Shown here: positions 1-21,322 of the stretch, in pieces | How positions within the stretch are numbered: position 1 is the first letter of the stretch | Layout: the number at the start of each line of letters is the position of its first letter | Assembly (NCBI RefSeq): GCF_016901675.1 | Contig: NZ_JACJKU010000006.1 | Location: 1-39,803, forward strand | Length of the DNA stretch: 39,803 nt | Reading direction: 5' to 3' | DNA from: Limosilactobacillus coleohominis | GTDB lineage: Bacteria; Bacillota; Bacilli; Lactobacillales; Lactobacillaceae | The notes under the pieces: model-generated | What the model saw: the letters and a program-made list of their open reading frames with translations, nothing else | The model's database searches: none | Told to the model about the DNA's origin: nothing | Translations under genes and position numbers: made by a program

Positions 1-1
1 G

Positions 2-60
2 CCCATAAAGGTCCTTCTTTCTTGGATTAGTTTAGCGACACCATTAAAGACCTTTATGGG
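2..60. repeat. 12-bp perfect inverted repeat, possible terminator
   Basis: CCCATAAAGGTC at 2-13 is the exact reverse complement of 49-60, and a TTTTCTT run follows at 61-67. On the plus strand this could end a gene lying to the left of the window. The 35-nt loop is long for an intrinsic terminator, so a mobile-element end or another repeat is possible. The flanking sequence that would decide is outside the window. Confidence 0.4.
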
Positions 61-96
61 TTTTCTTGTCCACTTATTTAACTGTTAACTTAAATA

Positions 97-507
97 TTAC
101 AATCTACGAAATGCAAAAAGATGCGAGATTTTTGTAATTTCTCTTAATTTCTTATATACTTGGTCAAAACCACAACCAGGAATTAATGAACCAAAGAAAT
201 GTTTCTGGTAATTTTGGTAGTGGATACTCATTCGCCAAGTTCCGACATCTGTTACAAAATTAGTTTGATATTCAGGATCTAATACTATTGTTTCTATTTC
301 ATTAAAAAATTGTTGCATCTCCTTGAGAGAAACTTTTGCTACTTTTTTTCTCAGCAACGTTTTGTCACCATATCGGTAGCCTCTGAAAACAAAGTGACCA
401 TCTCGATATAAGGTAAGGATTTGTATGGTTTCATCATTGAATTCCGGTTCTGGGCCAAAACAAATATTTTCAGAATCTAATTTGATTTTATCGATTGTAT
501 TAGCCAT
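97..507 (-). CDS. hypothetical protein, 136 aa
   Basis: I do not recognise this protein. It has a good ribosome binding site (AAGGAG, 5-6 nt before the ATG). There is no signal peptide or membrane segment. The composition is that of a soluble mixed alpha/beta protein rich in aromatic residues. The second half has a motif of the kind GTWRMSIHYQN...HFFGSL, roughly residues 89-107, followed by a predicted amphipathic C-terminal helix. It stands alone, next to gene remnants and a possible toxin-antitoxin locus, which suggests an accessory gene. No function is proposed. The call as a real gene rests on length, binding site and absence of a competing frame. Confidence 0.7.
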   Translation of the reverse strand: MANTIDKIKLDSENICFGPEPEFNDETIQILTLYRDGHFVFRGYRYGDKTLLRKKVAKVSLKEMQQFFNEIETIVLDPEYQTNFVTDVGTWRMSIHYQNYQKHFFGSLIPGCGFDQVYKKLREITKISHLFAFRRL

Positions 508-555
508 TTTTTCTCCTTAAAAAATCAGTCATTAAGTAATGATTACAACGCATTA

Positions 556-693
556 TTATAGCGACTTGATACTTTTTCTGACTCGTAGATTCCAGCCTAA
601 CTTATCTGGCTTGGAATAATTTATTGCGATATTGATTCGCTAATCATAATCCCTATTTTCATATTGTTGCTTGATTTTATCGTGTAGATTCAT
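556..693 (-). pseudogene. short broken reading frame with an internal stop
   Basis: An ATG preceded by AGGTGA at 8-nt spacing opens a 17-codon frame (MNLHDKIKQQYENRDYD) that ends in TAG at 640-642. The same frame continues for 27 more codons (RINIAINYSKPDKLGWNLRV...) to a TAA at 556-558. It may be the decayed start of a larger gene or a genuine tiny peptide. It lies just upstream of the 136-aa gene on the same strand. The family is not recognised. Confidence 0.25.
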
Positions 694-733
694 AAACTTT
701 TCACCTATTGCTTATCTGGAATTATGATACTCG

Positions 734-889
734 TCAGGACCCAGCCCCATAGGCCATTGATGCCAGTGTATGGCTAACTGTTACCTTACATCCACATTGA
801 GATAGTAATCGCTTAAATTCTCCAGTATGTTCCATATCGATAATTGTTAATTTCCCACCATGCCTAAGAACTCGAAATGCTTCATTCAT
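734..889 (-). pseudogene. C-terminal remnant of a class I SAM-dependent methyltransferase
   Basis: The 51-codon frame reads NEAFRVLRHGGKLTIIDMEH, followed by a stretch like EFKRLLSQCG. This resembles the post-motif-III segment of UbiE-like class I methyltransferases, whose usual form is (E)xxRVLKPGGxLxIxD followed by a loop like ECGF. The SAM-binding Rossmann start (motif I, DxGxGxG) is absent and an in-frame TGA lies just upstream of the ATG. The end (MAYGAGS) appears to fall in the family's usual WYGGP-like region. It is therefore read as a decayed fragment and not as a working enzyme. Such debris fits an old insertion or deletion boundary. Confidence 0.5.
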
Positions 890-939
890 TACTATTCATG
901 CTTGTGGGATCCCAGCCAGCAGGCTTTTTGTTGTTTCTA

Positions 940-948
940 TGATAAAAT
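940..948 (+). promoter_or_regulatory. extended -10 promoter candidate for the small-peptide transcript
   Basis: TGATAAAAT matches an extended -10 (TGnTAAAAT). No convincing -35 lies 16-18 nt upstream. A transcript would begin near 955, with a small hairpin at 967-984 whose 3' arm contains an ATG. Confidence 0.35.
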
Positions 949-1049
949 GCTATTAGGTCGGAATTGATGGGTCGCTCCCACCATGAAAGACTTAGCAGTT
1001 AACGTGGCTACACACCCCTCAAATAATCTGAACTGTGGAGGTGGAAGTC

Positions 1050-1097
1050 ATGTTAATTAGGAAAAGACTGGAGGAGTGGCAATTATTGCCGCCATAG
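1050..1097 (+). CDS. possible 15-aa leader peptide
   Basis: An ATG with GGAGGT about 7 nt upstream reads MLIRKRLEEWQLLPP and then stops, overlapping the hydrophobic frame that starts at 1076 in another reading frame. It could be a translated leader that opens the mRNA for the second frame. It could also be the N-terminus of one peptide split from its membrane segment by a one-base indel or a programmed shift. The binding site is better than that of the downstream frame. The call remains tentative. Confidence 0.25.
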   Translation: MLIRKRLEEWQLLPP

Positions 1098-1177
1098 TTA
1101 TCGTGGCAATCGGCCAGCTAATTATTGACTGTGCCAAAGCCTATGCGATAATAAAAAAAGCTAACCATAACGGTTAG
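1076..1177 (+). CDS. candidate type I toxin: 33-aa hydrophobic peptide
   Basis: The frame begins GTG-GCA-ATT and reads (V/M)AIIAAIVIVAIGQLIIDCA, then ends KKANHNG. It has one membrane-spanning stretch of about 17-20 residues and a charged polar tail, the usual build of type I toxins. The GTG lies only 1 nt after GGAGG, which is too close. A second in-frame GTG at 1103 or fusion to the upstream MLIRKRLEE frame are alternatives. The last codons and the stop at 1175-1177 lie inside a hairpin that ends a predicted antisense RNA, as in Fst/Ldr-type loci. The sequence is not one I can assign to a named toxin family, so function is inferred from size, composition and layout only. Confidence 0.4.
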   Translation: MAIIAAIVIVAIGQLIIDCAKAYAIIKKANHNG

Positions 1178-1180
1178 CTT
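1152..1180 (-). terminator. intrinsic terminator overlapping the small peptide stop
   Basis: AAGCTAACC (1158-1166) pairs perfectly with GGTTAGCTT (1172-1180) around a 5-nt loop. Read on the minus strand the stem is followed by TTTTTTT. The plus strand has no U tract after it, so it acts on minus-strand RNA. Confidence 0.75.
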
Positions 1181-1205
1181 AACTCCAGTCACCTGAACTG
1201 CGTTT

Positions 1206-1239
1206 GAGGGTAACGAGGCACCACTCGTTACTCTCTTTT
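1206..1239 (+). terminator. intrinsic terminator of the small-peptide mRNA
   Basis: GAGGGTAACGAG (1206-1217) pairs with CTCGTTACTCTC (1224-1235) with a single G-T wobble and a 6-nt loop, followed by TTTTCATTT. It would end a plus-strand transcript of about 285 nt begun near 955. The same sequence forms an internal hairpin in the antisense RNA. Confidence 0.75.
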
Positions 1240-1247
1240 CATTTACA

Positions 1248-1276
1248 ATGATATCTGATCTATTTTAATTTTTCAA
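1248..1276 (-). promoter_or_regulatory. promoter candidate for the antisense RNA
   Basis: Read on the minus strand: TTGAAA (1271-1276), a 17-nt spacer, and TATCAT (1248-1253). Spacing is ideal and each hexamer has one mismatch to consensus. Expected start is near 1241. Confidence 0.5.
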
Positions 1277-1398
1277 CTTGTAACTAAAAGTACGCTATCA
1301 AAACTAATTCAGTCGTCAAACCAGTATCAAGGCAGTGACGCTTTAATTCGACAAATATGACTTGATTTGAATTTGATGAATTACTAGTTTGTCTTTTC

Positions 1399-1448
1399 AA
1401 AAATCACCATCTTTTAACGCTACCTAAAGTTAACGTCCAAAGATGGTG
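1399..1448 (-). terminator. terminator downstream of the GNAT gene
   Basis: CACCATCTTT (1405-1414) is the exact reverse complement of 1439-1448, with a 24-nt loop. On the minus strand the stem is followed by ATTTTTGAAAAG. It sits about 70 nt after the stop codon of the acetyltransferase gene. Confidence 0.55.
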
Positions 1449-1515
1449 AAGTAATTAGAGTTAATATGTGAAAACTCGGGATATTTGGTACTTAGCTATT
1501 TTGGCTGGGTGCTTT

Positions 1516-1986
1516 TTAGTGTTCGGTGTTCATCGTCAAAACCAACATATCTTTTAACAGCAAACGATTTTCATAAATCGGCTGTTTATAATTTTTTGTG
1601 AAGAAGTCCTGCTTAATATCGGTCACCCTAAAGCCAAACTTTTGGTAAAGGTATAGTTGCTTAAAGCTGGTACTCCCCGTACCTATTTGTAATTGTTGAT
1701 ACTTGTGATTTTTGGAATATTGAATAGCAAAATACAACAAACGACTAGCAAAACCCTGATTCTCAAATCGAGGATCAACTGCAATATTTTTTATCTCTAA
1801 GCCACGTTCTGATACTGCCTCCAGCACAAGAATGGCGATTGGTCGGTCGTCTTTTTTAATATCAAAGACTTGACCCATCTGCAAATAATTCTGAACTAGA
1901 TGTTTGCTTGGATATGCTAATAAGAGCAGTCGCCAATGCTCACTAGTAATCTTTTCTACTTTATTAATTTTGCTTTTTGCAACCAT
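1516..1986 (-). CDS. GNAT-family N-acetyltransferase, 156 aa
   Basis: The protein has the GCN5-related acetyltransferase fold. The beta4/alpha3 acetyl-CoA segment is visible as NIAVDPRFENQGFAS at residues 67-81 (family form V.P..R..G.G/A). A C-terminal LYLYQKFGFRV segment is typical of the last strand and helix. Such enzymes move the acetyl group of acetyl-CoA to an amine; the substrate cannot be read from the sequence. The ATG has AAGG about 8 nt upstream. It lies alone, with its own terminator downstream and about 130 nt of intergenic sequence between it and the rRNA methyltransferase gene upstream. Confidence 0.85.
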   Translation of the reverse strand: MVAKSKINKVEKITSEHWRLLLLAYPSKHLVQNYLQMGQVFDIKKDDRPIAILVLEAVSERGLEIKNIAVDPRFENQGFASRLLYFAIQYSKNHKYQQLQIGTGSTSFKQLYLYQKFGFRVTDIKQDFFTKNYKQPIYENRLLLKDMLVLTMNTEH

Positions 1987-2098
1987 TGCTTAGCCTTCTT
2001 TACGTTCAACAACTGTAATGGTCTCCGCGGTTCGCCACTAACCAATCACTCGTCACGCTGTTCCTCGTTCTTGGGTGGCTATCGCGTGGAGTATCACT

Positions 2099-2134
2099 AG
2101 TACTTGAGCTTCGCCTTAGGCTCGCTCAAGTACT
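2099..2134. repeat. hairpin carrying the stop codon of the rRNA methyltransferase gene
   Basis: AGTACTTGAGC (2099-2109) is the exact reverse complement of 2124-2134, and inside it GCC and GGC pair around TAA, which is the stop codon of the gene. No U tract follows on either strand, so it may stabilise or process the 3' end, or be an intergenic repeat. The adjoining 2010-2098 is richer in GC than its surroundings and has further partial dyads (gccac near 2034 with gtggc near 2075). Confidence 0.6.
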
Positions 2135-3486
2135 GTGACACTCTCAACATGCGTCGTCTGCGGGAATTGGTCCACCGGCTGAATCGGTTTTGTTACATGG
2201 TAACCCTGGTCCATAAAACGTTGAATATCGCGAACCAGTGTGGCCGGATTACAACTTACATAGATTACCTTTTCAGGCTTCATCTTACCAGTTGCTTCGA
2301 TTAATTCTTCGCCCAACCCCTTCCGTGGTGGGTCCACAATCAAAACATCCGGTTTCAATCCTTCTTCCTGCCACTTTGCCATTTGTTCTTCAGCCTTACC
2401 AACTACAAATTCTGCATTTGCAATTCCATTATTTTTCGCGTTCATTTTGGCATCTTCAATCGCTGCCGGAACAATTTCTACACCATACACTTTTTTGGCG
2501 TGCTTAGCGACTGCCAAAGAAATCGTCCCAATACCGCAATATGCATCAATGACCGTTTGCGTACCATCTAATCCGGCATTTTGAATTGCCGTTTCGTAGA
2601 GACGTTCTGTTTGTTGAGGATTTACCTGGTAGAAAGACAATGGCGAAATTGTAAAGTTAATACCAAGTAGCTGATCATTAATTGTATCCTGACCCCACAA
2701 AGTATGGTTCACATCACCAAGAAGCTTGTTAGTTCGCTTACTATTAATATTCTGCACGATACTTTTAATCCCGGGTACCTTTGCGGATATTTCTTTAGTG
2801 ATTTCTTCAACATGTGGGATTTTTTTAGTATTCGAAATCAAAACTACCATCACTTCATGGCTGTAATAACCACGACGAACCATGACCGTTCGAATACATC
2901 CGCGTCCAGTTTGCTCGTCATATGGTTGAATATGATACTGACGCAGTTGGTCACGCACAATTTTAATTGTTTGATCAATAACGGGATCCTGGATTAGAAA
3001 GTTTTCAATTGGAACTAAGTCATGACTGCCCCGTTTGTAAAAGCCGGTTTGCAATTGACCCTTAATCAGCTTAACAGGTACCTGCGCTTTGTTTCGATAT
3101 TCATAAGGGTGTTCCATCCCCATTGTTGGTGCCACTTGAATATCATCCAAATGCGCTTTCTCTAGTAACTCTTGAATTTGATGACGCTTAAACTTAAGCT
3201 GAGCTGGATATTTTAAGTTCCCCAATGGAGCAATTCCAGTTTGTAGATACCGCTGATCCTTCATTTCAACCCGATCAGGACTCTTGGAAATTAATTTAAC
3301 CATTTTGCCCCAAGCAAAGTTTCTGGTTACCTTGGTTACAACAATTTCGACTTCTTCACCTGGTAAAGTATTAGGTACGAAGATGGGATAGTGTTCGACT
3401 TTAATTACACCGTTCCCTTGATATGTCAGATCAACCACCTTACTGGTAATATGATCGTTTTTGTAAACTGGTGTTTTAACTTTCAT
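2116..3486 (-). CDS. rlmD: 23S rRNA (uracil-5-)-methyltransferase, RumA/RlmD family
   Basis: This 456-aa enzyme uses SAM to make 5-methyluridine in 23S rRNA. In Firmicutes a single enzyme of this family (RlmCD) can modify both U747 and U1939. An N-terminal TRAM RNA-binding domain occupies about residues 5-65. The catalytic core shows FYQVNP (285-290), SAM-binding DAYCGIGT (314-321), DPPRKG (385-390), the nucleophile cysteine in YVSCNPATL (Cys412) and the general base in HVESV (Glu448). The Fe-S cysteine cluster of E. coli RumA, expected near residues 75-100, is missing: the segment reads QTGIAPLGNLKYPAQ. The ATG follows GGAGG at 7-nt spacing. It lies after a hairpin that separates it from dgkB, so it may depend on read-through. 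TrmA-like specificity is less likely. Confidence 0.93.
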   Translation of the reverse strand: MKVKTPVYKNDHITSKVVDLTYQGNGVIKVEHYPIFVPNTLPGEEVEIVVTKVTRNFAWGKMVKLISKSPDRVEMKDQRYLQTGIAPLGNLKYPAQLKFKRHQIQELLEKAHLDDIQVAPTMGMEHPYEYRNKAQVPVKLIKGQLQTGFYKRGSHDLVPIENFLIQDPVIDQTIKIVRDQLRQYHIQPYDEQTGRGCIRTVMVRRGYYSHEVMVVLISNTKKIPHVEEITKEISAKVPGIKSIVQNINSKRTNKLLGDVNHTLWGQDTINDQLLGINFTISPLSFYQVNPQQTERLYETAIQNAGLDGTQTVIDAYCGIGTISLAVAKHAKKVYGVEIVPAAIEDAKMNAKNNGIANAEFVVGKAEEQMAKWQEEGLKPDVLIVDPPRKGLGEELIEATGKMKPEKVIYVSCNPATLVRDIQRFMDQGYHVTKPIQPVDQFPQTTHVESVTVLERA

Positions 3487-21188: not shown

Positions 21189-21220
21189 AAAAAAATCACT
21201 TACAATTGAGGCGCGTGATT
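21189..21220 (-). terminator. weak terminator after rplQ
   Basis: AATCAC and GTGATT (21194-21199 and 21215-21220) form a short stem; on the minus strand it runs into TTTTTTT. A second hairpin, AATCGTA with TACGATT (21280-21286 and 21299-21305), lies closer to the rplQ stop but has no U tract. The rest of this 223-nt gap is AT-rich, with a possible -10 (TAAAAT near 21136) for ecfA1. Confidence 0.5.
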
Positions 21221-21322
21221 AAATCACATTCAAGCTAGACTAAGGAATAATTCCCATCATCATAACGCTTTATACCATCAATCGTAGTGATTCTTTATTA
21301 CGATTATTTAACTAATTTTGAA

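Follow-up and report, generated by a model that had tools for sequence, protein, structure and literature searches.

Does the short stretch of a Limosilactobacillus coleohominis contig that an initial annotation, made from the letters alone, proposed as an undescribed type I toxin-antitoxin locus hold such a module, and if so, how might synthesis of its peptide be kept in check? The window, by which we mean the whole stretch of DNA analysed (39,803 nt), is the entire contig C186 of a draft genome of 1.69 Mb in 240 contigs. The locus is bordered upstream by a frame at 97-507, its function unassigned and its likeness to DUF6438 weak and below the family cut-off, and on the other flank by a GNAT-family frame at 1516-1986. 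All of the elements listed for it were found in place. On the plus strand these are an extended -10 motif, TGATAAAAT (940-948), with a predicted RNA start near 955; a frame of 33 codons from GTG 1076 to TAG 1175-1177; and a terminator (1206-1239) whose stem, 1206-1235, is followed by TTTT. The minus strand carries a promoter, TTGAAA-17-TATCAT (1276-1248), and a terminator (1152-1180) whose stem, 1180-1158, holds the stop of the peptide and leads into a run of T to 1152; both of these, like the plus-strand terminator, are conserved over 117 copies.

Within positions 1-3000, terminator-like sites are above background (7, against 2.5 ± 1.5 in shuffles) and promoter-like sites are at background (7, against 8.7 ± 3.1). 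Because promoter-like matches do not exceed background in this 3-kb stretch, the single sequence alone makes a weak case, and the case for the locus rests on comparison. Comparison confirms that the locus is real, and a conserved frame, an antisense terminator and promoter, and a covarying antisense target make the proposed type I toxin-antitoxin reading well supported. Overall, we consider it probable that this is a prophage-derived, chromosomal type I module belonging to a family of the Lactobacillaceae, with silencing in two layers and a toxin whose translation would be coupled to that of a leader.

A peptide family of the Lactobacillaceae

The peptide has a single hydrophobic segment, with a mean hydropathy of 2.5 over its best stretch of 19 residues, and a basic tail, both conserved across copies, and the peptides of the copies read to AYAIIKKAN at their C-terminal end (signature ..AYAIIKKAN[HR]..). 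When relatives were searched at the DNA level, 14 of 56 genomes gave a match at E ≤ 0.01; four further genomes of the genus carry near full-length copies, and elsewhere the matches were partial and lay around the peptide's C-terminus. An earlier profile (A3), applied at the looser E ≤ 0.1, found the family in 23 of 50 genomes of the same genus, and a profile of 17 rows (A4), at E ≤ 0.001, found it in 79 of 396 Lactobacillaceae genomes, representing 20 of 40 genera and with up to six copies per genome. A larger profile (A5) matched 22 of 395 genomes in an order-wide sample, all of them inside the same family, and 1 of 398 in a phylum-wide sample, that one being the genome of the window. Among the holders of 17 loci are Limosilactobacillus rudii, caccae, oris, vaginalis, alvi and secaliphilus, Companilactobacillus formosensis, Fructilactobacillus fructivorans, Agrilactobacillus composti and Lentilactobacillus senioris, and IMG/VR contigs hold 15 loci of the family.

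Family matches were fetched in part, as 30 loci and 60 added stretches, with the weakest left out. Profile matches fell in 155 loci; matches scoring below 20 bits or sharing their last 90 nt with another were dropped, leaving 119; removal of two that lacked flanks or held N gave the 117 copies used throughout, which still include shortened copies and doubtful frames (e.g. L018, L119, L123, the second L062 and the third L095 hits).

Across the last 31 codons of 30 disjoint pairs of copies, there are 83, 57 and 186 substitutions at codon positions 1, 2 and 3. These produce 122 amino-acid changes against the 208 ± 6 expected from scattering the same changes, and in the same test the other two frames give 217 and 227. 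By this pattern of substitution, the peptide frame is coding and under purifying selection. The initial annotation had named a frame no better conserved than its flanking DNA as evidence against the locus; what we find is a frame present in half of the genera sampled, with its amino acids under selection. A deletion of 27 nt shortens the frame in one copy (L003).

In the libraries searched, the peptide could likewise be placed in no named family. When 68 members were compared with Pfam, NCBIfam and PHROGs, matches were weak and scattered (best E 0.0037), and no family matched more than 5 of the 68 at E ≤ 1. A PDB search with the profile of these members gave nothing at E ≤ 1, and Rfam gave nothing at the locus. 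The family is thus absent from the libraries searched, and it is by layout that we class it as type I; one likely reason why it has no name there is that the peptide is short and many copies lack an ordinary start codon. The string AIIKKAN was found in no paper by literature search, and we found no published report of the family, though the Fozo 2010 or T1TAdb surveys may mention it. A plasmid home for the main types was rejected on a tblastn search of three peptides against plasmids, which returned either nothing or three weak partial matches (E 0.9) on Lactobacillus amylovorus plasmids. Two peptides searched against phages gave nothing.

A convergent antisense gene and its matched repeat

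An intrinsic terminator on the antisense strand, centred on the peptide stop, is predicted in 100 of the 117 copies and in none at a control position 70 nt upstream; a sense terminator lies 25-85 nt downstream in 84 copies, compared with 8 at the control place. Downstream, the mean sigma-70 score is 10.95 on the antisense strand; it is 7.52 on the opposite, sense strand and 7.06 in shuffles. With the set thinned for relatedness to 53 copies, the values are 10.67 and 7.50 for the two strands, and the antisense strand scores higher in 46. These predictions show an antisense gene that converges on the peptide gene, has a conserved promoter and ends inside the peptide's stop codon. Since the two RNAs would end at separate terminators, the predicted antisense RNA (about 90 nt, 1152-1241, minus strand) would be fully complementary to the 3' end of the mRNA, with the complement of the mRNA terminator serving as its 5' hairpin. 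The sense promoter of the initial annotation fared less well: TGATAAAAT is present and is kept in orthologues, but over the family the score of the corresponding window is no better than background (6.76, against 6.96 and 6.55). The two promoters of the window's locus score 11.7 (antisense) and 6.1 (sense).

A second link between the two RNAs, on which the initial annotation was silent, is a short repeat. The string CTGAACTG occurs twice on the plus strand of the window, with no third site: once at 1028-1035, just before the ribosome site of a leader frame described below, and once at 1193-1200, inside the antisense gene, where the antisense RNA would carry it as CAGTTCAG. Other copies have other letters at both places (TTCCGGAA, TCCGGAT, TCTAGATTA, CACTGACTT and TTAAGTTACG), so that the repeat varies between copies and agrees within each. 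A match of at least 7 is seen within 52 of the 117 copies, compared with 5.5% of pairs made from different copies. After thinning to 54 copies of less than 65% identity, the observed mean was reached by 0 of 5000 permutations, and the shifted-window controls by 1750, 85 and 130 of 5000, the last two being mildly raised. Unthinned, the same two of the three controls were raised more strongly (705, 0 and 1 of 2000), which we put down to relatedness of the copies; because relatedness matters, the thinned figures should be preferred. Run with no limits on position, the test gave a weak contrast, in which 24 of the 117 copies fell in the best 5% of their own cross scores. The covarying repeat ties the predicted antisense RNA to the mRNA at a point just before the leader's ribosome site, and we propose the copy at 1028-1035 as the antisense target. 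By comparison, then, the predicted RNAs display the general trait of a type I system, an antisense RNA gene matched to its own mRNA.

Leader frame, RNA folds and a proposed mechanism

The best ribosome site of the locus, TGGAGGTG (1036-1043), does not start the peptide. It starts a leader of 15 codons, MLIRKRLEEWQLLPP* (1050-1097), which is out of frame with the peptide, overruns its start and had been passed over in the initial annotation. Among 51 copies with a Shine-Dalgarno match of at least 7 nt, 47 start a frame other than the peptide's; thinning leaves 27 copies, of which 25 are out of frame (P = 0.0018, tested against an expectation of one third). Under the weaker criterion of at least 6 nt, the numbers are 61 of 71 and, thinned, 34 of 42 (P = 0.03), and the leader is in frame in 10 of the 71 unthinned copies. 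Control ATGs further upstream have no frame preference (43/41/37). These comparisons show that the frame of the strong ribosome site is mostly not that of the peptide. Most out-of-frame leaders (54 of 61) end within or past the peptide's start region. The offsets +1 and +2 occur with similar frequency (26 and 35 of 71 copies) and change between close relatives: the window has 2 and L004, at 91% identity, has 1.

These offsets bear on one way of joining the two frames, namely programmed ribosomal frameshifting that would fuse leader and peptide into a single longer toxin. In some copies (e.g. L036, with 41 residues, and L095) the first site does share the peptide's frame, so a fused product may be tolerated. 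As both offsets occur, and differ even between close relatives, one direction of slipping cannot serve both; we rejected frameshifting as a general route and regard it as very improbable.

Where the peptide itself begins was a separate question. The GTG at 1076 chosen by the initial annotation is not conserved, being GCA in the orthologues L160 and L171, and it stands only 1 nt after GGAGG. For both reasons, AUU 1082 is the likely start of the window's peptide, which would then be encoded by 31 codons (1082-1177), with the TGGAGG at 1069-1074 as its proposed ribosome site. A GGAGG-like motif recurs across copies near -105 from the stop. In the 71 copies that have it, the commonest in-frame codons 7 nt further on are ACG (10), ATT (7) and GTT (7), which in the window again points to ATT 1082; ATG and TTG often stand in the peptide frame at 8-10 nt. 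The AUU and ACG codons could merely mirror isoleucine and threonine in the peptide, and the frequency of NTG codons calls for caution of the same kind: isoleucine, leucine and valine abound in the peptide, and NTG codons are just as numerous in windows placed 21-24 nt further on.

In the predicted fold of the mRNA (953-1239, 287 nt), both the leader's ribosome site and its ATG lie inside a long 5' stem-loop in which CACCCC (1013-1018) pairs with 1037-1043, and in the loop the repeat is unpaired over its first six bases (probabilities 0.86-1.0). The complementarity between the stem arm and the leader's ribosome site was equalled in 2 of 5000 permutations, but a shifted control was raised as well (97 of 5000), and for this reason the helix at 1013-1043 rests mainly on the predicted fold. 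A shorter 5' hairpin, TGGG-TCGCT-CCCA (968-980), also folds. When pairs were counted over six orthologues, it was the only place with changes on both sides, all of them in one row (1 of 6). For the antisense RNA of 90 nt, the predicted fold shows a hairpin at the 5' end and the terminator, and between them CAGUUCAG, the antisense copy of the repeat, in a weak hairpin.

The same mRNA fold pairs 1066-1073 with 1190-1183 at a probability of 0.99 or more. Here the region of the second ribosome site has its complement at the beginning of the 3' UTR (GACTGGAG/CTCCAGTC in the window), and the letters again change together in other copies, e.g. ATCGAGGA/TCCTCGAT in L004, GGAGGAACTTG/CAAGTTCTTCC in L094 and GGGACACGGTTTG/CAAAACGTGTTCC in L037. 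Over 53 thinned copies, 0 of 5000 permutations reached the observed mean complementarity (z 6.3), and the controls were flat (993, 3651 and 647 of 5000). The covariation shows a 3' UTR segment that is complementary to the region of the peptide's ribosome site, a putative fold-back that the initial annotation did not mention. In the window, the helix is a full 8-bp match, and four of the five orthologues have a G-U pair or a shifted variant. The pair counting over six orthologues found no change on both sides of this helix; L164, in which the helix is shifted by one column, was counted there as unpaired. Complementarity between the 5' UTR and the 3' region is equally strong (0 of 5000, z 7.0), and the two may form a second, alternative fold; that between the leader start region and the 3' region is weaker (14 of 5000). 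In the TTCCGGAA group the repeat is palindromic, which inflates complementarity matches.

From this anatomy and covariation we infer silencing, leader coupling, the start codon and toxicity, and propose the following sequence of events. The mRNA would be silent twice over, with the leader's ribosome site covered by the 5' stem-loop, whose loop would display the repeat, and the peptide's ribosome site by the folded-back 3' end. Ribosomes translating the leader would run over the second site and open it, so that a weak start codon, in the window AUU, would yield the peptide at a low rate. The antisense RNA would contact the loop via CAGUUCAG and spread along the fully complementary 3' end, stopping leader translation and exposing the duplex to RNase III. 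Were the antisense RNA lost, for example together with the element, the mRNA would be freed, the peptide would enter the membrane and growth would stop. Several points weigh against this mechanism: the sense promoter finds no support over the family, the frame bias weakens at 6 nt or more, the AUU and ACG starts may be mere peptide codons, one copy (L011) has no antisense elements, another (L003) carries the deletion described above, the window's copy is without its prophage, and pair counting over the six orthologues gave the fold-back helix no change on both sides.

The same antisense-silenced peptide could also exist with no leader coupling, in which case the out-of-frame site would be a decoy that diverts ribosomes, and the peptide would start on its own, at the second site, whenever the fold-back opens. 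The leader's stop lies at no fixed distance from the peptide start (-107 to -4 from the peptide stop) and its offset is free between +1 and +2, as expected of a decoy; a mere decoy, however, needs no silencing, and the predicted antisense target is at the leader's ribosome site and not at the peptide's. We judge this decoy model rather unlikely and retain leader coupling as the preferred reading.

Relation to known type I systems and probable prophage origin

The initial annotation had likened the locus to known convergent pairs, naming Fst, Ldr/Rdl and TxpA/RatA. According to the passages of the sources consulted, this is apt for Fst/par, in which the antisense RNA is convergent with the toxin mRNA (PMC7472228), but not for Ldr/Rdl, where Rdl overlaps the 5' UTR of ldrD (PMC4147584). 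Fst/par, as these passages describe it, encodes a small hydrophobic peptide with a charged tail, has repeats common to both RNAs near the toxin's ribosome site that are poorly conserved between members, and masks a ribosome site with a 5' stem-loop (PMC7472228). The new family resembles Fst/par (par of pAD1, Lpt/RNAII) in each of these respects: the peptide with its charged tail, the convergent RNAs, the repeats at a ribosome site, whose layout agreed when tested and whose letters are poorly conserved between members, and the stem-loop, which here is predicted. It differs in having two terminators (antisense at the stop, sense downstream) where Fst/par has one bidirectional terminator, and in having an out-of-frame leader and a 3' fold-back. 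The Fst/Ldr definition in the same source includes a conserved Trp between membrane segment and tail and a PXXXG-type motif (PMC7472228); the A5 alignment of 68 members has conserved columns for neither, and PF13955 is not among the Pfam matches of these members at E ≤ 1, so membership was rejected. The Fst_toxin profile matched 0 of 50 genomes of the genus, a result to be read with the shortness of this profile in mind, as it responded in only 1 of 14 control genomes, and there below its cut-off. In the parts of the literature consulted, Lpt/RNAII of Lacticaseibacillus plasmids is a relative of Fst/par (PMC5608710, PMC8003834) and Lpt is found mainly on plasmids (PMC8003834), unlike the new family, which sits mainly on chromosomes and in prophages. 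A search for type I systems in lactobacilli found Lpt and its homologues only.

The likeness to Hok/Mok/Sok is of another kind. In the passages cited, the mok leader overlaps the toxin frame and its ribosome site is what the antisense RNA targets (PMC4147584), and Hok mRNA has long-range pairing and is processed at its 3' end (PMC7472228). The new family likewise has an overlapping leader, with a ribosome site as proposed antisense target, and a predicted long-range pairing in the mRNA; its layout and frame bias would agree with toxin translation that depends on the leader, as in Hok. It differs in its Gram-positive hosts, in peptides unrelated by Pfam (no Hok family was among the Pfam or NCBIfam matches of the 68 members at E ≤ 1), and in an antisense RNA that comes convergently from the 3' side and would reach the leader via the repeat, not from opposite it. 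The locus thus resembles a Hok/Mok/Sok-like logic set on an Fst-like layout in Gram-positives.

TxpA/RatA and BsrG/SR4 of Bacillus share with the new family a prophage setting and an antisense RNA that can pair with the toxin mRNA at its 3' end. The same is described for YonT/SR6. The new family differs from all three in having no Pfam match to such toxins and, in addition to the 3' overlap, a covarying 5' target; holin-like Bacillus toxins (TxpA, BsrG) were rejected as relatives because no such family appeared among the Pfam or NCBIfam matches at E ≤ 1.

We know of no Gram-positive system with this combination of controls, and a literature search for one gave only unrelated-looking results. 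More tentatively, and as a possibility that we put somewhat below even, this may be a Hok/Mok-like control that evolved independently among Gram-positives, in a type I family spread across the Lactobacillaceae by prophages. In it, an obligatory, antisense-controlled out-of-frame leader, a 3' fold-back hiding the toxin's ribosome site and near-cognate AUU/ACG starts that limit the toxin would be combined with an Fst-like convergent layout. If leader coupling and fold-back are true, the strategy of Hok would be a recurrent solution and not an enterobacterial peculiarity, and near-cognate starts would be a testable means of keeping a toxin low.

The closest copies sit in prophages. Upstream of them is a holin (PF05105, from L005), with an endolysin-like frame between in L160, L002 and L170; downstream is a small SHOCT-domain protein and, in loci that extend far enough, a frame resembling a serine recombinase (the endolysin-like and recombinase-like frames were judged by eye). 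L171-L174 have neighbours other than these. Proximity to lysis genes, like the L011 copy in an operon lacking antisense elements, would suit an antisense RNA that controls a membrane peptide other than a toxin, such as a regulator or a helper in prophage lysis timing. The layout, size, hydrophobicity, basic tail, number of copies per genome and mobile context are all traits of type I toxins, and we find a non-toxin role quite unlikely compared with the toxin reading.

In the window, only about 919-1285 has a match in the prophage copies, and the phage genes are gone, so that the window's module seems to be a stranded remnant left behind when the prophage went. It might now be decaying. A second copy in the same genome (on C221) is shortened, with its 3' side kept, which would suit a dead remnant. 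That the window's own copy is already dead is unlikely in our estimation, as each of its elements is intact and the fold-back helix is complete. The shortened copy (L018, G000:C221) and L039 have lost the 5' half and keep the 3' end of the peptide frame together with the downstream sense-terminator hairpin; both are possible orphan antitoxins.

Several other arrangements were seen. At L011 (1433-1555, G017), the peptide frame lies between two frames in an apparent operon, has none of the antisense elements and begins right at the stop of the gene for a small VSEAQ.. protein; this copy would appear to be captured or rearranged, a setting that is odd for a toxin and a poor fit with strong toxicity. 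In the TTCCGGA group (L008, L009, L020-L022, L030, L032 and others), a small basic protein, MVSEAQKRAKKKWDDKNKDKNRVYRYRSYARKFIRDLA.., encoded on the peptide's strand, starts just behind the antisense promoter in several species and has no Pfam family above cut-off. Two different members lie about 230 nt apart in convergent orientation, with their antisense promoters between them, at G357:C1:549856-551433 and G304:C8:72162-72588. Elsewhere in the window, an imperfect inverted repeat around AGTACTTGAGC..GCTCAAGTACT (2089-2143), single copy in the genome, lies at the 3' end of a minus-strand frame (2116-3486), and the window's only Rfam match at gathering threshold is RF01708, the L17 ribosomal protein downstream element, at 21214-21271 on the minus strand.
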